Positions 4,552 to 19,798 of a DNA stretch of 38,071 nucleotides are shown piece after piece. The DNA is from a virus: positions 1-38,071 of IMG/VR virus record IMGVR_UViG_3300048837_000439; one strand, 5' to 3'. How positions within the stretch are numbered: the stretch's first letter is position 1; the number at the start of each line of letters is the position of its first letter. The translations under genes were made by a program, and so were the position numbers. The notes under the pieces were generated by a model. It saw only the letters and a program-made list of their open reading frames with translations. It made no database searches and was not told the origin of the DNA.

Positions 4552-7500
4552 TATACTTTTTTGCCTTTGAATTTAACACGATTATTCATTATAACCGTTT
4601 TTGTAAGTCCTTTTTGAATATAAGATGTAAAACCGTTTTTATCTATTTCAATAACGTTATCACCACCAGCACCTATTGCCCTTCTCATTGCTGTTTCCAC
4701 TTCCATAGCCGTTAATCCTTTTTCTTTTAGTGCTGGCATATAGGATATACCGTTATTTTCTAATTGTGCGTTAAGACTTCTTTGGAAGTCCGCCTCACTC
4801 TTGTAAACGTCAGAACCTTTTGGAAGATTAACAAGCAAATTCTTTCCTTTTGGTCTGTGAACCCCACCATCAGGAGTAGTAACAACCTCTTGGCGTTTCT
4901 CGTTAATCATTGCAGTTCCGCCTTCAAAATCACGTACCCCTTTTTCAAATTGTGGTATCGGTTGTGATGCTATTATAGCTAATTGAGCAAGTCCAAGTGC
5001 TGAAATGATTGCACCCGCGACAATACCAGCAGGCCATCCAAGTTCTGCAAATGTCTTTATAACCGAAGTGGCAATGTTTATATTTGCTTGAATTATAGCG
5101 GCATTCTTTTCACGTATAGCCTGTTTTCTCTGAAGCTCTGCTTTTTTACGTGCAAATCTTTCTTCTATGGCAGCTCTTGCGGAACTACTTTCACCCGCAT
5201 ATTCTATTTCAACGTCTTTTTGCGCTTCAAGTTGTTCAATACGTTGCTCCATTTGGTTTCTTTGCGCTGAAATAAGAGCGTTCAAAGCATCAACCGCCAA
5301 AGCCCCAAAAGTTTCAGCGGCTTCTCCGGCATCTAAGAAACCATTTTTTATTCCATCAAATAAATCCCTTGTCGTTTGTTCTTGAATACCCAATGTATTT
5401 CCAAGACTTACAAAAGCATCTTCTATTTGTTGTTCTGCAAATGCAGCATCTCTCGCAGCCTTTATTTTTAATGCTGCCTGTTTTAACAGTTCTTCATTTT
5501 CTTTTTCTAATGCCTCTGTATTGGCTTTTGTGCTTTCAAGTTCTTTTTTAGCCGTGGATTTTAGCCTATCGTCAATAAATTTATTTATACGTTCCTTTTC
5601 TTTCATCATTTCTTCCCATTCCTTTAAAACGGAAAGCACCTTTTCGGTTTCTTTTCTGTATTCCTTTATTTTTTTGGTAACGCCTAAAATTGAATCCCTT
5701 TCTTTTTCTAATTGCTCTATTTTTCTTTGGCGTAAACGAATCCCCTCAATATCGGTAGTATTTAGCTCCTGTATTTCGTCATTTAGTGCGCTAATTTCAG
5801 AAGATATTACGGTCAAAGTCCTTCTTACTTTTTCCGATTTACCACCATCACTATATAAATAAGAAGTCCAATCCTTTGTTTCATCGGTTGCATTCGTCAT
5901 TTCTTCCGTTAATGCAGTAATAGCACCCCTTAATTTATTTACTGAAGAATATTGGGCTTTTAAGGCTATGATATTGGCCTCAATAGCATCTTTGTTTCCA
6001 GTTATTTTATTAGCGGAATCTTCAAACCAATTAGGAAGTGCGCTCCATTGGGTAAATGCGTTTCCTATCAAAGTAAATCGCTCGAATAATGTTAAATTCC
6101 CGCCTAAAGCATCCTTCATTGAATTTAATGAATCCGTAATACCATTAAGATAAGAAGCTCCCAAACCTGAAAGCCATCCAAAGAATTTAGAGAATACACC
6201 TTCTCCGTCTTCAATAGTCAAAACCAAGTTATCCCAAGCAACGCCAAATGTCTTTATTTGGTTTGTCATTTTGGTATTGGCTGTATTAAACTCACGTTCG
6301 GCAGCACCAGCACTATTAGCCACTTCATCCAAAGCTGCGGAAAGAACCGGATAACCCTTTGTGGCTAAAGAACCTAAAACACGAATATCCCTAACACCAT
6401 CAACTCCTAATAATTGTAATTGCTCTTGAACACTTCCGCCACTTTCGGCAACACCGTTCAATCCTTCAATCATAGCGGTTAAGACACCCGCAGAATCTTC
6501 ATCAAAACTCTTTTTCAATTGTTCCGCACTTTGCCCTGTAAGCTCCATTATTTGAGCAACTCCTTTCCCTGTCCGAATAGCATTTTCCATTAAACCAAGA
6601 GTACGACCAATTGCGCTACCCGCTAATTCTTGCTCAATTCCCAATGCTTTTGTTGCAGTTCCATAAGCTAAAACTTCTTGTCTACCAAACTTATACATTG
6701 CTGTATTTTGTGCAACACTTGTGGAATTTCCTAAAATCTCATTTTCAGTAGCTGCAAAGTTGTTTCCTAAGTTTACAATTTCATCAGCAAAATCCTTTAC
6801 ATTTTGAACGCCACCATCGGTAAGTGTCAGCAATCGAGCTATATTCGCCCCACCTTCTTCACCTCTAATATTAGAAGCTGTTTCAAGCATTGCTAAAGCC
6901 TCTGCAAATTGTAATAGGTTCTTACTACCCTTAACTCCCAATTGACCTGCAACCGTTGCATATTCCAATAAAGCAGGAGTTCCCACCGTTGTTAAATCAC
7001 GTGAAAGCTTAACAATATCATCCCCAAATTCTGAAAGCTCTTTTTCTGACATCCCCGTTGTCTTGCCAACGTTCTTTAATCCACTGTCAAATTCAAGTAC
7101 GGTGTCTTTATTGCCTTTTATGAGTAAAAATAACCCGCCTAAAGCAGCAAGAGCCAATCCAACTGGCGTAACAAGAAACGCCATTGTAGCACGTCCGAAA
7201 TTAGCCAATTGGGTTCCCAATGTTTTTAACCCACCACTACCTGAAATTTCCTGTAATGAAGTTCCCATCATCATAAGTTGGCTATTCACTTGTCCTAAGA
7301 TTGGATGAAGATTGGCAACTCCATCAGCATAGTTACCGACATTTCTTTGGTGAAGCCCCAAAGAAGAATCAATATCCTTAATCCCTTTGTCTAATATTTT
7401 AGTTTGCCGGGTTAGATTTGCTGAACGTTTTGCCAATCTGTCGTATGCTTCGGTGTTCTTTTTTCCTTGCCTTTCAAGCCTGAACATTTCAGCAGCGACA

Positions 7501-7913
7501 TCTTTAGCCCTTGTACGTACTTTTCCAAGTGCATCGTTCAATTGCTTATACTCGCTGCTTTCTTTTTTAAGTTGCGCTATTAGTTTTTTCTTCTGTGCTT
7601 CCTCTCTTTTTAATTGAGCATCATATTTATCAAACGCCTTTTCCCTTTGTTGGGCTACCCGTATTTCTGCAATTCTATTTCTTTGGGCTTCCTTTTCAAC
7701 CTTACTAAGTCTTTCGGAAGTTTTGGTTATATTTCTTTGTGATGTTTCAATTTCCTTTAACGATTTGGTATAATCGCTCGGTAGTTTGGCGTATTGCTTG
7801 TTAAGGTCAGCTAATTTAGTAACCGATTGAGATATGGCTTTGTCGTGTTCGTAGAATGCAGCCGTTAGCTTATCGACTAATACTTTTGCATCAATAAAAT
7901 TATTTTGTGGCAT
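4551..7913 (-). CDS. Phage tail tape measure protein, TP901-type
   Basis: At 1120 residues this is the longest gene except for one possible rival. Residues 1-180 are charged coiled coil (many Lys, Glu, Ala). A hydrophobic segment lies near 240-265. Residues about 275-560 carry the TP901 core pattern: a DSGLKNVGKTTGMSEKELSEF segment followed by TVGTPALLEYATVAGQLGVKG. More coiled coil follows, then a second hydrophobic patch near 960-990. This is the usual layout of the protein that fills the tail tube and sets tail length, and may help DNA pass the inner membrane. By the common rule of about 1.5 angstrom per residue the tail would be about 160-170 nm (inference). The gene follows the 213-residue assembly protein with a 14-base overlap and couples to the next gene by TAATG. 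Confidence 0.92.
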   Translation of the reverse strand: MPQNNFIDAKVLVDKLTAAFYEHDKAISQSVTKLADLNKQYAKLPSDYTKSLKEIETSQRNITKTSERLSKVEKEAQRNRIAEIRVAQQREKAFDKYDAQLKREEAQKKKLIAQLKKESSEYKQLNDALGKVRTRAKDVAAEMFRLERQGKKNTEAYDRLAKRSANLTRQTKILDKGIKDIDSSLGLHQRNVGNYADGVANLHPILGQVNSQLMMMGTSLQEISGSGGLKTLGTQLANFGRATMAFLVTPVGLALAALGGLFLLIKGNKDTVLEFDSGLKNVGKTTGMSEKELSEFGDDIVKLSRDLTTVGTPALLEYATVAGQLGVKGSKNLLQFAEALAMLETASNIRGEEGGANIARLLTLTDGGVQNVKDFADEIVNLGNNFAATENEILGNSTSVAQNTAMYKFGRQEVLAYGTATKALGIEQELAGSAIGRTLGLMENAIRTGKGVAQIMELTGQSAEQLKKSFDEDSAGVLTAMIEGLNGVAESGGSVQEQLQLLGVDGVRDIRVLGSLATKGYPVLSAALDEVANSAGAAEREFNTANTKMTNQIKTFGVAWDNLVLTIEDGEGVFSKFFGWLSGLGASYLNGITDSLNSMKDALGGNLTLFERFTLIGNAFTQWSALPNWFEDSANKITGNKDAIEANIIALKAQYSSVNKLRGAITALTEEMTNATDETKDWTSYLYSDGGKSEKVRRTLTVISSEISALNDEIQELNTTDIEGIRLRQRKIEQLEKERDSILGVTKKIKEYRKETEKVLSVLKEWEEMMKEKERINKFIDDRLKSTAKKELESTKANTEALEKENEELLKQAALKIKAARDAAFAEQQIEDAFVSLGNTLGIQEQTTRDLFDGIKNGFLDAGEAAETFGALAVDALNALISAQRNQMEQRIEQLEAQKDVEIEYAGESSSARAAIEERFARKKAELQRKQAIREKNAAIIQANINIATSVIKTFAELGWPAGIVAGAIISALGLAQLAIIASQPIPQFEKGVRDFEGGTAMINEKRQEVVTTPDGGVHRPKGKNLLVNLPKGSDVYKSEADFQRSLNAQLENNGISYMPALKEKGLTAMEVETAMRRAIGAGGDNVIEIDKNGFTSYIQKGLTKTVIMNNRVKFKGKKV

Positions 7914-8541
7914 CTTTCTTTAATTTTGTAATTGCCATCTTTTCATAGGCAATCCATTCACTTACTGACATTTGATTTACATTCAATTGCATATTAAGGG
8001 CAAGCCCTACGCTCGCAACTACTTCAAATACATTTTGTATCTTTTTATTGGTGTCGTTATCGTTTTTCTTCTTTTGGATATTGTACTTATTTACAAATCC
8101 AGCCAATAAACGATTAATAATAGTCATCATATCAAAGACGTTAGGAGGCAACTGTATGCCTGTCTGTATCTTTAATATTGATTGCCTTGCGGATTCAATT
8201 ATAGCTTTATAATCCGCATCGGTTAAAAATGTTTTGTTTTTTTGCACCGTGTCTAAATGCTTGTGTATATTTGAAAGTAGTTCAATATTAAAAAATAATA
8301 TTGCTTCTTCTTTCAGTTCCCGAAGATATTTTAAAGACCGGCTATCATTCTTAATGCTAAAATATTCATCGTAAAGCTCTGTCCAAATACCGTTTATATA
8401 AGTTTCTTGTTCTTTTGTATAGACTTTATCTTTAGTCCATAGCGTGTCCAATAGATTGATATTTTGGGTTTTCTGTATTTCCCAAAAAGTCAATATTCTT
8501 AGATTGTCTAAACTGTCCTGTATGTCTATTTTGGATTCCAT
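7900..8541 (-). CDS. Probable tail assembly chaperone-like protein (213 aa)
   Basis: A mostly helical 213-residue protein directly before the tape measure, the place where siphoviruses encode tail assembly chaperones (lambda G/GT type). The C-terminal stretch contains NVNQMSVSEWIAYEKMAITK, which resembles helices of such chaperones, but the family was not verified. Its ATG (8539-8541) overlaps the end of the 77-residue gene by 16 bases in the -1 frame, so either re-initiation or a -1 slip in the AAAA run before the upstream TAG could express it. A charged KKKNDNDTNKK stretch lies near residues 155-165. Confidence 0.5.
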   Translation of the reverse strand: MESKIDIQDSLDNLRILTFWEIQKTQNINLLDTLWTKDKVYTKEQETYINGIWTELYDEYFSIKNDSRSLKYLRELKEEAILFFNIELLSNIHKHLDTVQKNKTFLTDADYKAIIESARQSILKIQTGIQLPPNVFDMMTIINRLLAGFVNKYNIQKKKNDNDTNKKIQNVFEVVASVGLALNMQLNVNQMSVSEWIAYEKMAITKLKKDATK

Positions 8542-8759
8542 TCGCTTATGTGAAAATATTCAGCCCCGTTAGGGAAATTGTCCTTTATTTTGCTAAATAT
8601 AGCGTTAAAACCGCTTTTTTTTATGGTTTTGAAAGTATCTTTTTCGCTCATTCTATAAACATATCTTTCAATTCCGTGTTGTTCAAACTCCTTTTTAAAC
8701 TTGGAAACGAGTTGCTTTTGTGAGCCTTTCCATCCAGCACCACAAGTCAAGCACCCCAT
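8526..8759 (-). CDS. Small tail-region protein, possible chaperone partner (77 aa)
   Basis: A 77-residue basic protein whose start holds MGCLTCGAG, a Cys-x2-Cys pair. The rest is a Lys-rich helix and a short beta region. It overlaps the 147-residue gene by 13 bases and the 213-residue gene by 16. The frame closes as CCA AAA TAG, so a -1 slip on the A run would fuse it to the next frame. It may be the short partner of a G/GT-like pair, but this rests on position only. Confidence 0.5.
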   Translation of the reverse strand: MGCLTCGAGWKGSQKQLVSKFKKEFEQHGIERYVYRMSEKDTFKTIKKSGFNAIFSKIKDNFPNGAEYFHISEWNPK

Positions 8760-11636: not shown

Positions 11637-12899
11637 TTATACACTTGGAATTGCTTCAGTTAAAGCCGCTTTTACAGCATCCAAATCAAGTTCAAGAGAA
11701 CCAACAAGGTTTCTTTCAGCTACCGATAAGATTGAAAATACCTCGCCAATGGCTGTATATTCGTTCTCAATAAATTGGTCTGCGTATTGACCTTCTCGTA
11801 AAATGAAATCACTGTGAATCTCATTGTAGATACTTGAATCCATTATGATAGCAGTACCTTGTTCGATTAAGTTTGAAGAAACCAATCTCATTCCACCAAT
11901 CGTACCCGTTGCTACATTCATATAAGGCACGTTTTTCAAATTACCCTCTGAATCCTGTTGGTACATTGTAGCAACAATATCCGCAGGGTTCATAAGTACT
12001 ACGTTAGGGTAGTAATTAAGGGCGTTCAATTGGCTTTGTCCCGCTATAATTGCAAGTCCGTTATCCGGTGCTACAAAAGTACCGTCCAATACAGAAGAAA
12101 CATAAGAGGTAGCGTTTGATATAATTTCAGCCAATAATCCGGCTTGCCATACCCTAACAACTTCTTCTTGAAACATTCTTAGTATTTCACGGAATAGAGC
12201 TTCATAATCCATTTCAAACTCTTCAGTCCATTCGATACGTCCCGCATATTTCTTACGTGCCGTAGTTGTACGTACAAACTTGAATTGAATAAGTGGTTTT
12301 ACAGCACCTTCAGCAACTAAAGCAGCAGCGCCTTCTTTCGGGGCTTGTTCTGGTTTAATTACCTGTTGTGGAACTTTAGCCACTTGCATGTTTGGAATTA
12401 CGTTAAGAAGGAAATTCTCAGGGTAACGAATCTTTGCAATTTCGCTATCTACCATAAAATTGTCCGTGGTTGGATAATCCAATCCCTCTGCATTTGTAAC
12501 CGTTCCGTTGTTGGTCATATGCATTGCAGCTATCTTAAATGTAAAATCTAACGGCTTACGGTTCTTTACGGCATCCACAATATCTTGGTGCTTTTCCTTA
12601 ACCATTTTCTTCAATTGGTATTTTTCAGTCTCGCTGAACTTGCCCAATTGTGTCTCGCTTACCTTTTCAAGTTTTTCAGCGATATTCTTTAGTTGTGTCA
12701 TTAAGGACACCTCTTTTCCATTGTCGTCTTTTTCAAGCGTTCCAATGGCATTTTTTAAAGCCGTCTCAAATGTAGTTTCCTTATCTTTAAGTGCTTCATT
12801 GATGGACTTGGAAAGCGTGTTTAAAAGCGTTTCCTGTCCTTCTGCTAAGTCTACGTTCTCTTTTTTGAACGCATCGACTAAATTAATTTCTTTAGACAT
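11637..12899 (-). CDS. Major capsid protein, HK97 fold
   Basis: 420 residues. Residues 1-~115 are charged helices like the scaffold-like delta domain of HK97-type capsid precursors, followed by a linker likely cut by the adjacent protease. The rest has the capsid-core pattern: an N-arm (GLDYPTTDNF), a basic-flanked E-loop region (VRTTTARKKYAGRIEWTEEF) and a spine-helix-like FREILRMFQEEVVRVWQAG. After that come the A-domain strands with NYYPNVVLMNP and GTIGGMRLVSSNLI, typical of the family. It follows the protease with an 8-base overlap. The protein self-assembles into the icosahedral shell. The cleavage site cannot be placed exactly from sequence. Confidence 0.9.
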   Translation of the reverse strand: MSKEINLVDAFKKENVDLAEGQETLLNTLSKSINEALKDKETTFETALKNAIGTLEKDDNGKEVSLMTQLKNIAEKLEKVSETQLGKFSETEKYQLKKMVKEKHQDIVDAVKNRKPLDFTFKIAAMHMTNNGTVTNAEGLDYPTTDNFMVDSEIAKIRYPENFLLNVIPNMQVAKVPQQVIKPEQAPKEGAAALVAEGAVKPLIQFKFVRTTTARKKYAGRIEWTEEFEMDYEALFREILRMFQEEVVRVWQAGLLAEIISNATSYVSSVLDGTFVAPDNGLAIIAGQSQLNALNYYPNVVLMNPADIVATMYQQDSEGNLKNVPYMNVATGTIGGMRLVSSNLIEQGTAIIMDSSIYNEIHSDFILREGQYADQFIENEYTAIGEVFSILSVAERNLVGSLELDLDAVKAALTEAIPSV

Positions 12900-13716: not shown

Positions 13717-13844
13717 ATCTTCTCGGTTTCACGTTTCTTTTTATTCAATATATCAATCTTCATTTGGATATTATGCCTTACCGTGTCGGTCTTAGCATCC
13801 TTCTTCATTTCCGTTAGTTTCTCAATGGTCTTATCTATATTCAT
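13713..13844 (-). CDS. Small helical protein between portal and protease (43 aa)
   Basis: A 43-residue, Lys-rich, helical protein that begins MNIDKTIEKLTEMKKDAKT. Its start overlaps the portal stop (ATGA) and its stop overlaps the protease start (ATGA), the same coupling used across the operon. This makes a real gene likely despite its size. No function is recognised; a coiled-coil scaffold or portal helper is possible. Confidence 0.6.
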   Translation of the reverse strand: MNIDKTIEKLTEMKKDAKTDTVRHNIQMKIDILNKKKRETEKI

Positions 13845-15088
13845 ATCGAATCGTATTTATCCTTAATCTTTGCAAAGTTGTCCTCAACTGCCACACCGTT
13901 TTCCTTTAACGCTGTCAAGTTCTCAATTAACACTTTATCTGCCTCATAACTTGTCTTTTTATCTTCCTGCAATATCTCTACATTTTGGAAGTTCGGATAG
14001 AATACAGCGTTGTCCGGTAAGTAAAAGGCCTCTGAAAGCTCAACGCCTCTTTCAATAGCAGTTGATTTTATAACTGTTTGCCATAGTTTTCTTTCACCGT
14101 CTATCTTGTTGCTATACTTGCTTGGCGCACGTTTAGGAACTAAATCTGCATCCAATCCAAATACGGAAGCTATCGCCATTGCGTCCACTTCGGTTTCATC
14201 AAATGGCTGAAGTTCGTTTATAGTTCCTATTGTCTTAATGAATTTCAAAGGAATGGAAGAAACGCCTATAAAATTCTTTGCGCCCGTTAAACCGTTCCTA
14301 TTCTGTAAGTCATTCATTATCTTGTCACGCTCCACGGGGTCAACCTGTGCTTCAATTCCTGTCTTTGAAGAGTCGGCAGATAATATACCACCGTTCATAT
14401 TCTTTTCGTAAACGTTCAATCTTGCGGAATAGACGGCTAACAAATTATTGATGTTCTTTTCAACCGCATCCAATGGACTTCTGCCTTTTCCGTTCCTTCC
14501 AATCTCAAACATTGTATTGTGTTTGATATATCTTGGATCAATAGAGTGCTTATAAAAGAAGAATGTTTTGTAGTAAGATATAAGTTCGCTCTTTTCCTTT
14601 ACGCTCCACGGGTTAGGTATAGTTTCCTTTAACATTGGTTTTGTCAAAGTGGGGTTCAAAGTCCATATATTGGTAATCAAATCAATATTTGGGTTATTGT
14701 AGCTATCGGGTATCTTTGTGTAATCGTAAACATTTCCATCTGAAAACTTAGAGAATACGCCTTGGTACACAAGGTCGCTGAACTTGGAATATGGGTTTGG
14801 TCTTTTAAACAATCTTTTAAAATTCTCGCTCCCGAAATTCTCAATAGGCAATAATGTATCTTTGTCCACTACTTCATAATCCAAAGAAGCACACGCATCG
14901 GCAATCATATCAATAGGGTAGAACAGTTCTGCTATTGCTCCCGCTAAAGAATAAGCCTCTTCACAATTGTATTTTTTTGGTGCTTCGGTATTAGCGTATT
15001 GATTGAAGTAAATTAACCAGTCGCCCGAAGTGTCCCGCTCTGCGAACTTCTGCGGTTTGTTTCTCTTTCCGAAAAGACCTCCTAACAT
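13841..15088 (-). CDS. Portal protein, HK97 type
   Basis: 415 residues with the N-terminal pattern of portals (MLGGLFGKRNKPQKF, then AGAIAELFYPIDMIADACAS), a core with RSPLDAVEKNINNLLAVYSA and a Trp-rich segment near residues 140-150. A dodecameric portal forms the DNA entry vertex and connects to terminase and neck proteins. The gene lies between terL and protease/capsid, as in HK97-like phages, and starts about 90 bases after a Bacteroidota-type promoter. It ends in an ATGA overlap. Confidence 0.85.
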   Translation of the reverse strand: MLGGLFGKRNKPQKFAERDTSGDWLIYFNQYANTEAPKKYNCEEAYSLAGAIAELFYPIDMIADACASLDYEVVDKDTLLPIENFGSENFKRLFKRPNPYSKFSDLVYQGVFSKFSDGNVYDYTKIPDSYNNPNIDLITNIWTLNPTLTKPMLKETIPNPWSVKEKSELISYYKTFFFYKHSIDPRYIKHNTMFEIGRNGKGRSPLDAVEKNINNLLAVYSARLNVYEKNMNGGILSADSSKTGIEAQVDPVERDKIMNDLQNRNGLTGAKNFIGVSSIPLKFIKTIGTINELQPFDETEVDAMAIASVFGLDADLVPKRAPSKYSNKIDGERKLWQTVIKSTAIERGVELSEAFYLPDNAVFYPNFQNVEILQEDKKTSYEADKVLIENLTALKENGVAVEDNFAKIKDKYDSI

Positions 15089-15181: not shown

Positions 15182-15211
15182 CAAAAATATAATAATTTTT
15201 GAATTAATCAA
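15182..15211 (-). promoter_or_regulatory. Bacteroidota-type promoter for the portal operon
   Basis: On the minus strand TTG (15211-15209), a 19-bp spacer and TATTTTTG (15189-15182) match the TTG-N17-23-TAnnTTTG pattern of Bacteroidota promoters. It overlaps the last codons of terL and lies about 94 bases before the portal ATG. It would let head and tail genes be transcribed separately from the terminase block. Confidence 0.6.
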
Positions 15212-16515
15212 CCAAATAAAAGTTTTTTATATTTAACCTTAATTATTTTTGAAGCCATTGACGCATTATCTATCGCATCCATTTTATGTTTATTAGCTTT
15301 GTCATCTTCTTTTGAGTACTCCGAAAGATGCTCCATAAACTTAGCGTACTGCTTATCTTTTGCCTTTTCCTTTGCAAAACAAAAGTACTCTTTTATAAAT
15401 TCATAGTTTGAAAGTATCTTGACCTCTTTATTCTCGGTGGTGGTAAGGGGTTTTAACTTGGTGTGGTTCTCAATCTTTGGCTTAACGCTCAAATAAGATG
15501 CAAGCCCTACACCGTTAACCTCTAAATAACATTCTTCTATTCCCTCTGCTTTCAGCTTCATTAAGATAGTGTCTGTTAACGCCTCGATGCCGTCCTTTGA
15601 ATAGATAACGTCCCTAACTACTACTTGTATTTTTCCCTCTATCTGTATAACCCAACAAAATATCATTGAATAGTTGTCGCCTCCTGTATTGGCAGGGTCG
15701 CCTATCGCAAACGCATATTCTATCTGTTGGGGGGTTATTGTCGAAGTGTCTATAAAATTGAGTTGTCCGTATGGAAGCAATACGCCTTCGGGTTCTGTTA
15801 TCCAACCGCCCTCAACTATGTTATCATATTTCTTGGGGTTCTTTTCCTTTAGTTTTTCGTAGTCGGCAAGTATGTTATTTGGTACGTGTTCAGCATCCAT
15901 ATCTTTATAGGATGTGTGGGTATAAAGCACGTTCTCTTTTATCCCGTTGAATCCAGTTGGAACTTGCCTATCTTCAAAGAACTCTTTATAAATCCAATGG
16001 TTACGAGTTGTGGGGTTAAGGATTAATATGTTTAGGTTTCGTAACTTATTGGAACGTATTGAATAGAAAACCTTTTTGAACGTGTCCAAATCTGGAAGCT
16101 CTTCAGCTTCATCCACTACAAACATATTGAAACCCGATAACGCCTTTAGGTTTGCTGTTTGTTGCTTACTGCCTGTTTTTATCCCCTTGAATGCTATACG
16201 GTTCTTTCCGCTTTCAATATGGGTGGATGTATCATTGATATATTGACCTTTTCCCAATAGGTCAACTTTGTCGCTTACCTCTGGCTTAATAGAATCTACA
16301 ATGGAAAGGGAAGTGTAACGAGTGTAAAGTATATTCCATCCATAATCAACCAAAGCAATTATTGAGAATATAGCGGTTACGAATGACTTTGACGAATAAC
16401 GCCCCCCTGTCATTATAACCGTATCTACTTCGGGATGGAAGTTAGGGTCTAATAATCTGAATAAAGGCTCGAACTTGTCGCTAAACTCAATCTTTTTTTC
16501 CGCTGTCTTTGGCAT
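15208..16515 (-). CDS. terL: Terminase large subunit
   Basis: ATPase/nuclease of the DNA packaging motor. With the start at 16513-16515 the protein has 435 residues. Visible motifs are a Walker A-like TGGRYSSKS (36-44), Walker B MFVVDEAEE (131-139), a coupling-like NPTTRNHW (167-174), and nuclease-domain acids: D273 in IGDPANTGGD, E332 in LEVNG and D413/D416 in KMDAIDN. The frame is open further upstream to an ATG at 16629, but the later ATG is preferred because the longer form would run deep into the 125-residue gene (29-base overlap with this start). It sits five genes from the small subunit, which is unusual. Confidence 0.92.
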   Translation of the reverse strand: MPKTAEKKIEFSDKFEPLFRLLDPNFHPEVDTVIMTGGRYSSKSFVTAIFSIIALVDYGWNILYTRYTSLSIVDSIKPEVSDKVDLLGKGQYINDTSTHIESGKNRIAFKGIKTGSKQQTANLKALSGFNMFVVDEAEELPDLDTFKKVFYSIRSNKLRNLNILILNPTTRNHWIYKEFFEDRQVPTGFNGIKENVLYTHTSYKDMDAEHVPNNILADYEKLKEKNPKKYDNIVEGGWITEPEGVLLPYGQLNFIDTSTITPQQIEYAFAIGDPANTGGDNYSMIFCWVIQIEGKIQVVVRDVIYSKDGIEALTDTILMKLKAEGIEECYLEVNGVGLASYLSVKPKIENHTKLKPLTTTENKEVKILSNYEFIKEYFCFAKEKAKDKQYAKFMEHLSEYSKEDDKANKHKMDAIDNASMASKIIKVKYKKLLFG

Positions 16516-16864
16516 CCTTAGACTTGGATTTCTTTTTTTTAGGGACTTCTTTATCTTCTTTAGCTTTTTGCATTTTATCAAAGAAGGGCGTTCCCTTAAC
16601 GAATGTTGCATCAATTTTAGGCAATCCATTTTTTACATCTGGAATTACAACCTCTTCAACCAATACTTTAGGCTTAATTTTAGTTGTTGCCTTCGCAGCC
16701 TTTGGCAGTGGGTTTGTTTCAACCTGTACGATTGTACCGAACCTTGCGCCTACTATCTTTTCAGCCCTTGTATCGGTAACGGTTATCGTTTCGCCCTTTC
16801 TTACAACACGTTTTAAATCAACGTCTTTGTAGTTCTTATTGATTAATACTTTTACTTTTTTCAT
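16487..16864 (-). CDS. Hypothetical basic protein upstream of terL (125 aa)
   Basis: A 125-residue protein with a beta-rich N-terminal half (KGETITVTDTRAEKIVGARF) and a Pro/Lys-rich tail ending in KKKKSKSKDAKDSGKKD, which may bind nucleic acid or be disordered. It is coupled by ATGA to the glycosyltransferase and overlaps terL by 29 bases. The N-terminal pattern resembles small beta domains found next to phage head genes, but the family is not known to me. Confidence 0.55.
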   Translation of the reverse strand: MKKVKVLINKNYKDVDLKRVVRKGETITVTDTRAEKIVGARFGTIVQVETNPLPKAAKATTKIKPKVLVEEVVIPDVKNGLPKIDATFVKGTPFFDKMQKAKEDKEVPKKKKSKSKDAKDSGKKD

Positions 16865-17781
16865 TTCTCAAGAAATTTAACCCAATCTTTCAGGGTTGAT
16901 TTATGTTCAAATTTAGTCAAAATAATTCTATTCTCTAATATTTTTTTCCAATCGCTCAAATCAAAGTCCAATATCCAACCGTTTACTCCGTCCTTGACCT
17001 GTTCTTTTGCGCTCGGATAGTCGGTAGTTATTACGGGCGTTAATTGTTGTAACGCTTCATAAGTAGAATAAGGGAATCCCTCGCTATCGGATAGCTGTAC
17101 GATATAATCGCTTTGGGATACTTCTTTAGATACATCGGGCTTATATCCGTGGAATACCATATTCTTTGGCGCACGTCTTATAACGTACTTTGCATAAGTT
17201 CCGTTTATTGATCCGTAAACATTCCAAACAAATTTAACGCCCTCGTTATTTAAGTGGGTAGACAACAATAGCATTCTTTCAAATCCCTTTTCCCTGCTAA
17301 TACGTGATGCTGTTATTAGCGTTAGTTTATCGTTTTCCTGCTTTGGATGGATTGGACAATTTTTGTCCAAAAGGTTATAAATTACAGCATCGCATTTGTA
17401 CGGTGTAACTTCTTCAAAGGATTGTTTGACCGCATCCCCTACGCAAACGTGGTGCGTTGTTTGGTCTGACTTGTTGTATTTAAAGCTCCATCCTGTTATC
17501 TCTACACCGTACATAGCGTGAACCATTTGAACGGTCTTTGTTGCTGTTATATTCTTTGGATAACCGCCCCACGCAGTAGCTAATATAAGATAATCGCATT
17601 GGTATTTTTGCTTTGGGTTTATAACCTCTGCATTATCTAATTTAAACGCAAGTGTAGATAGTTGTGGGGATAGTAATGTGATATTATATTTAGAAGATAA
17701 TTCCTTTTGTAAGTTTATACAGAACGTTTCAACGCCACCGAATGAAGTAAAACAGGAATGGTATATTATTATTGATTTCAA
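16861..17781 (-). CDS. Glycosyltransferase, GT4 family (GT-B fold)
   Basis: 306 residues, slightly short for GT4 enzymes. The N-terminal domain starts MKSIIIYHSCFTSFGGVETF, with the Gly-rich loop GGVE typical of GT4. The C-terminal domain carries SRISREKGFERM (159-170) and the EX7E pair E234/E242 in SDSEGFPYSTYEALQ. Family members transfer a sugar from a nucleotide sugar with retention of configuration. The acceptor is unknown. The enzyme lies inside the packaging operon with ATGA overlaps at both ends and shares the region with a cytidylyltransferase and a LicD-like gene, so it may modify virion or host-surface glycans late in infection (inference). Confidence 0.85.
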   Translation of the reverse strand: MKSIIIYHSCFTSFGGVETFCINLQKELSSKYNITLLSPQLSTLAFKLDNAEVINPKQKYQCDYLILATAWGGYPKNITATKTVQMVHAMYGVEITGWSFKYNKSDQTTHHVCVGDAVKQSFEEVTPYKCDAVIYNLLDKNCPIHPKQENDKLTLITASRISREKGFERMLLLSTHLNNEGVKFVWNVYGSINGTYAKYVIRRAPKNMVFHGYKPDVSKEVSQSDYIVQLSDSEGFPYSTYEALQQLTPVITTDYPSAKEQVKDGVNGWILDFDLSDWKKILENRIILTKFEHKSTLKDWVKFLEK

Positions 17782-18023
17782 TTTGATATTACAGGAATAT
17801 TAGACTTAGCAAAACCAACTACTTTTTCTTCTTTTTTATTTACTTCATAGTCATAAATCCAAGTAGTCTTTCTTTCACCGTTAGCCCACCAAGCAACTTC
17901 ATATTCCACATTTTCAAAGTTATTACCTCTAATGCAAATAGCTGTTATAATTGCTGTTAGTTTTTTGTTTGCAACTTGCACTTCAGTTCCGGGCGTTAAA
18001 AGCGTTCTGTTTAAGTCATTCAT
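17778..18023 (-). CDS. Small beta-rich protein in the glycan cassette (81 aa)
   Basis: An 81-residue protein with alternating hydrophobic strands (TEVQVANKKLTAIITAICIRG) and Trp-rich middle (EYEVAWWANGERKTTWIYDY). It reads like a small SH3-like barrel. It couples by ATGA to the LicD gene before it and to the glycosyltransferase after it. The function is unknown; it is plausibly a virion or glycan-binding piece. Confidence 0.6.
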   Translation of the reverse strand: MNDLNRTLLTPGTEVQVANKKLTAIITAICIRGNNFENVEYEVAWWANGERKTTWIYDYEVNKKEEKVVGFAKSNIPVISN

Positions 18024-18601
18024 TTAATATAACATTTCCGTTTCAATCTTTTGCTTGGATGGTCGTTTGATGGTATTCGCCAATTATTACCGTAAAGCGT
18101 TTCTATTATTTCTTCTGGTGGAAATGGAATGTTAAAAGGTTCGCCTTCAAAATAATGTGGAGCAACTCGATAAAATCTACTCTTTGTTAGTTTCCCCCAT
18201 TGTGCGGTGTGGTAATGCCAATCGGGTGCTATCCAAGCCGTAAACAAATCAATAACATACCCATCAAATGTTATATGCGCTTGCCCGAATACATTGGTTA
18301 TCTTATTAGCTAATGGAACGACTTTATAATTTACATCCCAATACTTCAAAAGATGACCGTCCTTATGTAATCTACGGTATAACATAACCGCTTCTTCCTG
18401 TACCCTCTTTATATCATTGTGCTTTGATAGGTAGCAAATATCTATATCATTGTCGCCATCAATTAACTTGCCTTCTCTTACAGCACCCAATAGACTGCCA
18501 AATCCCAAATGTGGGGAATATTCCGAAAGATAATCACACGCTTTTTTAACTGCTTTGATATAACCTTGCTTATTTTCGGGTGTCCAGTATTTAAATGTCA
18601 T
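18020..18601 (-). CDS. LicD/fukutin-family phosphotransferase-like protein
   Basis: 193 residues. The LicD nucleotidyltransferase signature is clear: GSLLGAVREGKLIDGDNDID (35-54), where the D50/D52/D54 cluster would bind metal and phosphate, then DGYVIDLFTAW and the C-terminal EEIIETLYGNNW seen in the family. Known LicD proteins move phosphocholine or related phospho-alcohols from a CDP carrier to glycans. The preceding gene is a cytidylyltransferase, which could make such a CDP donor. The exact substrate (choline, glycerol, ribitol or other) cannot be told from sequence. It starts within an 11-base overlap. Confidence 0.85.
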   Translation of the reverse strand: MTFKYWTPENKQGYIKAVKKACDYLSEYSPHLGFGSLLGAVREGKLIDGDNDIDICYLSKHNDIKRVQEEAVMLYRRLHKDGHLLKYWDVNYKVVPLANKITNVFGQAHITFDGYVIDLFTAWIAPDWHYHTAQWGKLTKSRFYRVAPHYFEGEPFNIPFPPEEIIETLYGNNWRIPSNDHPSKRLKRKCYIK

Positions 18602-18989
18602 TGCTCCTTAATTGCGTTCCACTAATGCCTTTTGTTCTCGGTAGATATACAACCGGCACACCCAATCCTTCGCCCGTGAATGTAGTTTTATCCCAATCGT
18701 TGCCAACAAAAATAACGTCTGGCTTGAAGTTCTCTACATTCCACTTTTTATTATAAAAATCTGTTTGGTAATATACTATTTCCGGAAGTAAGGTTTTATA
18801 AATTGATTGCACCCTTTCAGCAAGATTTGAAGTAGGTTTGTATCCCTTGTGGGTTTCGATATAATCATTGTCACTAACGCATACAATAAGTTTATCGCAT
18901 TGCTTTAAAGCGTTATTGAATAGGTTTATATGGCCTTGGTGTAATGGGTCGAAAGCACCGAAGGTTATGCCTAACTTATGCTTCTTCAT
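18591..18989 (-). CDS. Cytidylyltransferase, TagD-like (glycerol-3-phosphate type)
   Basis: 132 residues, the usual length of the TagD family. It has the nucleotide-binding H17-Q-G-H20 (in FGAFDPLHQGHINL) and the C-terminal RTKGISGT (118-125), close to the family RTxGISTT signature. Such enzymes join a phospho-alcohol to CTP and make CDP-glycerol or a related donor. It follows terS with a 14-base overlap and precedes the LicD gene, so donor synthesis and transfer are adjacent. The actual substrate is inferred only; ethanolamine-phosphate or choline-phosphate cytidylyltransferases share these motifs. Confidence 0.88.
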   Translation of the reverse strand: MKKHKLGITFGAFDPLHQGHINLFNNALKQCDKLIVCVSDNDYIETHKGYKPTSNLAERVQSIYKTLLPEIVYYQTDFYNKKWNVENFKPDVIFVGNDWDKTTFTGEGLGVPVVYLPRTKGISGTQLRSNDI

Positions 18990-19467
18990 TGTAGGATTTA
19001 AAAGCTATTGTGGTTACTTGGACTTTATCCCCTTGCGTAGTGTGGTCAATTGCTTGTGTATCTTTCCATCCAAAGTTTTTAAGAACAAATATATTGCCTG
19101 TACATTTATCACCATAAGCGGTCTGAATCTCGTGGTATTTCTCTATTCTTGTGATTCCCTTTTTTATGTAGTCGGAAAACTCTTTCTTTTCTGCGTAATC
19201 ATAAAGGCTGGATTTGTGCGCAAAACCTAAATGTAAAGTTAATCCTGTGATAGTTGGAGGTTCTGGTTTCCTTGTCCAAGCCCTACGGGTTTCCTTTGAT
19301 TTATTTCCTTCGTCATCTACCACTTCAATTACATTATCTTCAAACTCACCTTCTATCCATTGGAAATAATCTTGAACCAATCTTCCAACAGCTTCTGGGT
19401 CGGTGTGGATTGGTGGTCTACCTCCTTCGTTGCCTTCTGCAAATTTATTTCCTTTTGGTGCGCCCAT
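18976..19467 (-). CDS. terS: Terminase small subunit, P22 gp3-like
   Basis: 163 residues. The N-terminus MGAPKGNKFAEGNEGGRPP is the familiar Gly/Lys-rich opening of the gp3-like DNA-packaging protein family, and PPTITGLTLHLGFAHKSSLY plus GNIFVLKNFGWKDTQ are the usual helix-turn-helix and C-terminal elements. It recognises the phage DNA start site and presents it to TerL. The ATG overlaps the preceding TAA (TAATG). A headful packaging mode would be consistent with the circular map (inference). Confidence 0.85.
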   Translation of the reverse strand: MGAPKGNKFAEGNEGGRPPIHTDPEAVGRLVQDYFQWIEGEFEDNVIEVVDDEGNKSKETRRAWTRKPEPPTITGLTLHLGFAHKSSLYDYAEKKEFSDYIKKGITRIEKYHEIQTAYGDKCTGNIFVLKNFGWKDTQAIDHTTQGDKVQVTTIAFKSYNEEA

Positions 19468-19673: not shown

Positions 19674-19731
19674 AGTTAAAAATGTTTTAATATATATGCC
19701 TATCCAAAGAATCCTATTATCGCTATGTTTG

Positions 19732-19798
19732 TGGACAAGAAGGGAATCGAACCCTCATAAACCTCTTTCAGAGCCTCTGCACTCTGCTATCCTTGCCC
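19732..19798 (-). tRNA. Degenerate tRNA-like gene, anticodon uncertain
   Basis: On the minus strand a 7-bp acceptor stem (GGGCAAG with CTTGTCC, one wobble) and a 5-bp T arm with loop TTCGATT are nearly perfect. The D arm is cut down to GCA-GAG-TGC with a 3-base loop, and the interior is about 6 bases short (67 bases in all). The anticodon arm is poor. One reading gives loop CTGAAAG (anticodon GAA, Phe) with one G-G mismatch and a short variable loop. Another gives CTCTGAA (CTG, Gln) with an unpaired stem. It may be a decayed tRNA or an aberrant one; no CCA is encoded. Confidence 0.6.

Follow-up and report, generated by a model that had tools for sequence, protein, structure and literature searches.

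The stretch of DNA analysed here, referred to as the window, is the 38,071-nucleotide viral record IMGVR_UViG_3300048837_000439 (positions 1 to 38,071). On its minus strand, the genes for the small and large terminase subunits, terS (18976..19467, 163 aa) and terL (15208..16515, 435 aa), are separated by five intact, overlapping genes that encode a TagD-like cytidylyltransferase, a LicD-family protein, an 81-residue protein, a GT4 glycosyltransferase and a 125-residue protein, p125. The reading frames, strand and overlaps given in a first-pass annotation were all reproduced: from terS through to terL, successive genes overlap by 14, 11, 4, 4, 4 and 29 nt. The identity of terS was based on phrog_606 (E = 5e-25) and PF16677 (58.5 bits, above the cut-off), and that of terL on PF04466 (E = 5e-22). 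The latter scored 95 bits against TIGR01547, under the cut-off of 105 bits, and was 61% identical over 237 residues to terL of Olleya phage Harreka_1. The next gene after terL encodes the portal protein (13841..15088, minus strand; PF04860, E = 9e-17), and the major capsid protein gene lies at 11637..12899 on the same strand (phrog_10, E = 1e-9; 62-63% identical to that of Harreka_1). The GC content of the cassette genes was 32-37% as compared to 35% for the window, so composition gave no sign of a chimera. Promoter-like and terminator-like sites occurred at chance level. The cassette is probably co-translated with terS and terL, and its position suggests late expression.

The TagD-like protein (18591..18989, minus strand, 132 aa) contains the motifs HxGH and RTKGISGT. 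Its best solved relative was the glycerol-3-phosphate cytidylyltransferase of B. subtilis (PDB 1coz, E = 3e-13), and it shared 54% identity with the TagD encoded by phage contig L233. Against TIGR01518, the glycerol-3-phosphate cytidylyltransferase equivalog, the protein scored 68 bits, the cut-off being 165 bits. The alcohol is therefore not fixed, and the protein was filed only as CTP_transf_like (PF01467, above the cut-off; E = 2.5e-12).

The LicD protein (18020..18601, minus strand, 193 aa) exceeded the gathering cut-off of PF04991 (26.1 versus 22.6 bits), and its residues G35, R42, D50, D52, D54 and D118 were invariant across 56 homologues. FKRP was the sole family matched by its AlphaFold model (pLDDT 85) at a Foldseek E-value below 1e-3, with a VIA Z-score of 14.7 as compared to 10.6 for the next unrelated fold. 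The protein is accordingly modelled with an FKRP-like nucleotidyltransferase-type fold and several conserved catalytic Asp residues (D50, D52, D54 and D118), and we classify it as a putative LicD/FKRP-type CDP-alcohol phosphotransferase. FKRP is a CDP-ribitol:glycan phosphotransferase that places ribitol-phosphate on a protein-linked glycan. Relatives of the viral protein were recovered by alignment-based searches only: a single-protein scan of IMG/VR yielded none, and a tblastn query of GenBank phages returned nothing at E < 0.01.

The GT4 gene (16861..17781, minus strand, 306 aa) begins at a TTG codon that overlaps the stop codon of the 81-residue protein's gene. Its product matched PF00534 at 68.1 bits (E = 8.6e-19), retained E234 and E242 of the EX7E motif, and shared 42-47% identity with the best-matching GT4s of phages (44% with that of contig L104). 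Overall, the profiles, the invariant LicD residues and the conserved GT4 glutamates bear out the enzyme assignments and intact catalytic motifs of the first-pass annotation, and homology supports the predicted enzymology well. The 81-residue protein (17778..18023, minus strand) had weak PHROG and Pfam matches only, with no informative relative, and no relatives in the viral contig set searched. By hydropathy, all of the cassette proteins lacked a membrane segment, the highest 19-residue mean being 1.25.

The position of the cassette is unusual. Adjacent terminase genes had been proposed to be the norm, and a survey of terS-terL spacing agreed. Among the relatives, 22 terS matches were detected at E < 1e-3, nearly all overlapping or abutting terL. 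In L126, whose terS match was marginal, the two genes are 250 nt apart. In L103, which of the syntenic relatives is the closest (65% capsid identity), terS and terL overlap by 14 nt and the cassette is absent.

Although p125 (16487..16864, minus strand) does lie between the terminase genes, it is more than the separator it was taken for: it is a partner of the glycosyltransferase. Specifically, residues 3-46, approximately the first 45, form a small domain, DOM (HMM i-E 4.7e-9 among 6132 ORFs), followed by a Lys/Ser-rich tail. The AlphaFold model has residues 1-50 as a block with pLDDT 91-95. Within the window, p125 is the gene next after GT4, with a 4-nt overlap. Across the phage GT4 family, DOM was fused to GT4, next to it or within three genes of it in 40 of 46 non-redundant clusters, as compared to 1 of 340 other genes of at least 200 aa, that one being itself a GT2-GT4. 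The commonest named families flanking 25 GT4 clusters were terS, terL, portal, capsid and HNH. The usual order elsewhere is GT4-DOM-terS-terL. Here, terS comes first, which indicates that the array is composite. Counting against a packaging-linked reading, the fused GT4-DOM of an isolate, Butyrivibrio phage Arawn, is located in the early region beside SSB. Small proteins resembling p125 fall in phrog_933, annotated as 'unknown function'. The structural matches of DOM give no ground for proposing capsid binding: those to the C-terminal domain of lambda gpFI (gpFI-C; Z = 5.2) and to YqbF (Z = 4.7) were no better than those to unrelated small domains, and the fold is common, with replication and ribosomal proteins scoring at least as well as gpFI-C.

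On comparative sequence evidence, TagD and LicD are a real pair. Of the 61 viral LicD clusters, 26 had TagD fused to LicD or located within three genes of it, and LicD and TagD formed a single chain in three or more different proteins, one of them flanked by GT2-like domains. Beyond the window, about nine viral lineages have the pair in a head, packaging or tail block. It directly precedes terL in L382 (epimerase-167 aa-TagD-LicD-terL), has the order LicD-TagD-terL-portal in L259, and in L283, L291 and L314 sits either between terL and portal or immediately ahead of portal. In L369, it is found with a GT4 between capsid and head-tail adaptor; in L233, as GT2-LicD-TagD-GT2 upstream of terL and portal; in the L342 group, beside the tail terminator; and in L323, by reading, in a morphogenesis block. 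Contigs from metagenome 3300035698 recur, so that the examples of such cassettes in other phages are partly non-independent. Many other viral LicD-TagD pairs are found away from head blocks, in the company of sugar-nucleotide genes, which counts against a role at the virion. Record MT836586, labelled 'phage', contains TagD and LicD; its gene content reads like that of a bacterial capsule locus, and it was dropped as phage evidence.

We propose that the product of the cassette, expressed late, is a glycan capped with a phospho-alditol and carried, most likely, by a virion protein, a proposal to which we give about even odds. The TagD-like enzyme would convert CTP and an alditol phosphate, most likely glycerol-3-phosphate, to a CDP-alditol. 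The GT4 would transfer a sugar to the acceptor, guided or assisted by DOM at the N-terminus of p125, and the LicD/FKRP-type enzyme would then transfer phospho-alditol from CDP to that sugar. The acceptor would most likely be a virion protein of the head, portal or neck, because GT4-DOM and TagD-LicD, each independently, are found again and again among the genes for terminase, portal, capsid and connector; its modification would take place in the cytoplasm at a late stage of infection. Sequence and predicted structure establish the protein families, the intact catalytic residues, the coupling of the genes and their recurrence and placement; we infer the acceptor, donor alcohol, sugar, order of steps and late timing. 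The first-pass annotation had envisaged that a phospho-alcohol, activated with CDP, could be added to a glycan along with a sugar. This is still the best-supported chemistry, given the likeness to FKRP and the TagD/LicD neighbours and fusions.

That annotation had left the target as either the virion or the host surface. Placement, the GT4-DOM coupling and the lack of predicted membrane segments favour the virion. Nevertheless, the enzymes may instead alter the capsule, LPS or another surface glycan of the infected cell, blocking re-adsorption or superinfection. Benler et al. propose such a role for a phage licD-ispD pair and for a glycosyltransferase between portal and capsid (PMC8008677), and in cellular genomes TagD and LicD are found side by side in loci of polysaccharide type, such as L088, with ABC transporter and chain-length-type genes, and L071, near a sugar transferase. 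We consider this the less likely outcome: the cassette contains no flippase, polymerase or membrane-anchored enzyme, late placement leaves little time for surface remodelling, and GT4 is coupled to a small partner domain in units that, like TagD-LicD, recur beside structural genes. Similarly, Gtr-type O-antigen conversion involves a membrane flippase and membrane glycosyltransferases, whereas the cassette proteins lack a hydrophobic segment.

The composite array, together with the lack of TagD and LicD in the GT4-DOM relatives' loci that were read, would also fit separate arrivals, with GT4-DOM alone linked to packaging and TagD-LicD a passenger outside any single pathway. This is improbable in view of the overlaps of 4-29 nt at all six gene junctions and the occurrence of TagD-LicD with glycosyltransferases near structural genes in L233, L369, L342 and L259. 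Phages do glycosylate DNA, the cassette adjoins terminase, and a TET/JBP oxygenase and an annotated base glucosyltransferase are encoded by Nonlabens phage P12024L, which has a related terL; GT4 might glycosylate modified bases for discrimination by terminase or restriction enzymes. However, TET/JBP was absent from the window, from 24 GT4-DOM or related viral records and from Arawn, while the P12024L positive control was found. Moreover, the annotated larger genes include no base-modification enzyme, and no part in modifying DNA is known for TagD-LicD chemistry, making this explanation very improbable. Least probable of all is an artefactual joining of two genomes: the locus is from a single metagenomic contig, but at both junctions the reading frames overlap, there is no shift in composition, and unrelated contigs show like arrangements.

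Phages with glycan cassettes are already known, and for a few phages there is documented glycosylation of the virion. The papers searched contained no description of the cassette's composition and placement or of the GT4-DOM coupling. We know of no report of phosphodiester-linked alditol decoration of a phage particle. FKRP/fukutin-type CDP-ribitol phosphotransferases share with the window's LicD the predicted fold, the conserved Asp residues and the CDP-alditol donor class but are eukaryotic Golgi enzymes with an extra domain. In bacterial TagD-LicD polysaccharide modules (L071, L074, L088), the two enzyme types are likewise adjacent, but these loci are cellular, and some of them include genes for export or polysaccharides that the cassette lacks. 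Cyanophage S-CAM7 encodes a LicD-like protein (phrog_36020) and glycosyltransferases upstream of a tail-fibre gene, also near a structural gene; it is, however, a large myovirus with no annotated TagD in the stretch compared, and the genes lie outside the terminase block.

Mycobacteriophages Che8, Corndog and Myrna carry sugars on capsid and tail-tube proteins (Freeman et al. 2023, cited in PMC11256854 and PMC12363180). As in the window, the glycosyltransferases are phage-encoded; the portions of these sources consulted report no TagD-LicD, and they place those of the related Maravista near the genome 3' end rather than between terminase genes. Virion modification in the window is, by comparison, suggested by genes. 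The Flandersviridae licD-ispD insertion also has a second nucleotidyltransferase-superfamily enzyme beside LicD, but this is of the IspD family and in the replication module, with no glycosyltransferase or packaging link described (PMC8008677). The Gratiaviridae HipA kinase-AAA-glycosyltransferase unit between portal and capsid likewise places a glycosyltransferase in a head block but with other partners, lacking TagD and LicD (PMC8008677).

More broadly, and more tentatively than for the cassette itself, several unrelated phage lineages may carry dedicated virion-modification machinery among their packaging and head genes, comprising GT4 with a virion-associated DOM, sometimes with TagD-LicD phospho-alditol capping. 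The GT4-DOM coupling provides a sequence rule for spotting candidate glycosylated virions among many phages and ties p125-like proteins of phrog_933 to glycosyltransferases. With its fused GT4-DOM, the isolate Arawn makes the module testable now. If virions are indeed decorated, this would matter for adsorption, for the way phages are recognised by immune systems and for how FKRP-like enzymes evolved, and such machinery among packaging and head genes would give bacterial viruses a counterpart to the modification of dystroglycan by FKRP.

The 38,071-base window is an entire IMG/VR contig from a tailed phage. Among isolates, Olleya phage Harreka_1 comes closest, with a terL 61% identical across 237 residues and a capsid 63% identical. 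On the minus strand, the order is terS, TagD-like cytidylyltransferase, LicD, an 81-residue protein, GT4 glycosyltransferase, a 125-residue protein (p125), and terL, with successive overlaps of 14, 11, 4, 4, 4, and 29 nt. Profile searches confirmed the gene identities proposed in the first-pass annotation, and the catalytic motifs it named in the enzymes are present. A tRNA-Phe gene (anticodon GAA, 19731-19798) lies a short way upstream of terS; a tRNA-Trp gene occupies a comparable site in Leeuwenhoekiella phage Arctus_1.

The separation of terS from terL, initially flagged as unusual, was borne out by a spacing survey of 55 related viral loci from a capsid-based scan. In this set, 22 ORFs matched the iterated terS profile at E < 1e-3, nearly all touching or overlapping terL; in L126, where the match is marginal, 250 nt separate the two genes. 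Locus L103, whose capsid is 65% identical and which has upstream genes in common with the window, shows a 14-nt terS/terL overlap and no intervening gene. Similarly, a terS-like gene adjoins terL in Harreka_1. Because the two genes adjoin in these relatives, the cassette insertion is peculiar to the window phage among the relatives examined. Genes seem to be inserted preferentially between terS and portal in these phages: in L103, a Methyltransf_24 gene (7138-7683) stands between terL and portal. Harreka_1 has an acyl carrier protein gene (6927-7172) a few genes upstream of terL. In L104, L105, L115, L118, and L119, portal and capsid are conserved and the C-terminal part of TerL resembles that of the window while the N-terminal part differs, suggesting domain exchange.

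FKRP uses CDP-ribitol as donor to transfer ribitol-phosphate to a protein-linked glycan. An AlphaFold model of the phage LicD (pLDDT 85, pTM 0.83) matched FKRP with a Foldseek E of 5.8e-7, the sole family below 1e-3, and with a Z of 14.7 versus 10.6 for the next fold. Residues G35, L37, L38, G39, R42, D50, D52, D54, and D118 are kept across 56 homologues. The best solved-structure match of the TagD-like protein is glycerol-3-phosphate cytidylyltransferase (1coz), but it scores below the glycerol equivalog cut-off, which leaves glycerol as a candidate alcohol. GT4 retains the EX7E motif and conserved donor-site residues.

The window GT4 belongs to a phage family of which 80 viral loci were retained. 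A domain of ~50 residues, DOM, was located relative to GT4 in the 79 loci with a callable GT4 gene, including the Butyrivibrio phage isolate Arawn: it is fused to GT4 in 41, encoded by the gene directly following in 27 and by the second gene along in 3, whereas 6 loci lack it within two genes and 2 are truncated by the contig end. With similar sequences removed, DOM is fused, next, or at most three genes away in 40 of 46 GT4 clusters, versus 1 of 340 other large genes, that one being a GT2-GT4. Residues 3-46 of p125, which was left out of the training set, match DOM (i-E 4.7e-9; 6,132 ORFs scanned). On this sequence evidence, p125 is the predicted partner of GT4. DOM is predicted to be a compact beta-beta-beta-beta-alpha-beta domain, for which Foldseek gave no significant match. 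Triple-domain GT2-GT4-DOM phage proteins are encoded by ~620-residue genes in L214, L189, L211, and similar loci.

The commonest named PHROG families among 125 genes flanking 25 GT4 clusters were terS, terL, portal, capsid, and HNH. Recurrent orders were GT4-DOM-(terS-sized gene)-terL-portal (e.g., L154, L162, and L179; terS confirmed in L163) and terL-GT4-DOM-portal (L104, L156, and L160). L104, related to the window phage by its capsid, has this GT4 at 44% identity, together with a 61-residue DOM protein, on the opposite side of terL. In the L197/L199-L205 group, terL and large head-type genes are followed shortly downstream by GT4-DOM. Using profiles seeded from the window proteins, no TagD or LicD was found in the stretches read of these loci.

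Two further scans, irrespective of location, yielded 61 viral LicD clusters. TagD is fused or within three genes in 26 and adjacent or fused in 17, several pairs being single chains. Packaging, head, or tail-block cases include L382 (small HTH-like gene-epimerase-167 residues-TagD-LicD-terL), L259/L260 (LicD-TagD-terL-portal), L283 and L314 (pair in the terL-portal interval), L291 (TagD-LicD ahead of portal), L369 (capsid-LicD-acetyltransferase-TagD-radical SAM-GT4-head-tail adaptor), L233 (GT2-LicD-TagD-GT2, then methylases, terL, and portal; TagD 54% identical), and, by reading, L323. PHROGs verified the terL, portal, capsid, or adaptor genes in L382, L259, L283, and L369. In the L342 group, a fused protein precedes the tail terminator; in L342 itself (6161-8746), it is one 861-residue chain with GT2-like, LicD, TagD, and GT2-like parts. 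Because contigs of metagenome 3300035698 occur repeatedly among these block cases, a naive probability for their placement would be misleading. Other viral pairs lie in sugar-nucleotide clusters distant from head genes, and cellular TagD and LicD adjoin in polysaccharide-type loci. The 952-residue terL frame of L283 (847-3705) contains HNH endonuclease matches and possibly holds an intein or homing insertion. The GenBank 'phage' record MT836586.1 reads as a bacterial capsule locus, and its label is probably mistaken.

Alongside the observed enzyme families, intact residues, gene coupling, and recurrence of these units, a pathway may be proposed: the TagD-like enzyme would produce a CDP-alditol, GT4 with DOM would transfer a sugar to an acceptor, and LicD would add phospho-alditol to that sugar. 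The preferred acceptor is a virion protein, based on the location, the GT4-DOM tie, and the absence of membrane parts, none having been found in the cassette proteins. The main rival is modification of the host surface, which Benler et al. (PMC8008677) suggested as the role of related genes in phages. That the cassette serves a TET/JBP-type DNA-modification route is unlikely. Late expression, as originally suggested, would follow from gene position; promoter-like sites occurred at chance level.

Virion decoration has precedents: in mycobacteriophages, capsid and tail-tube proteins are glycosylated (PMC11256854, PMC12363180). Gut phages carry a licD-ispD pair and, separately, a glycosyltransferase within the head block (PMC8008677). 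No account of TagD-LicD in a packaging block or of GT4-DOM coupling was found in the open-access literature searched. Phage glycosylation is thus already known; within that literature, the placement of TagD-LicD in the packaging block and the coupling of GT4 to DOM appear to be new.
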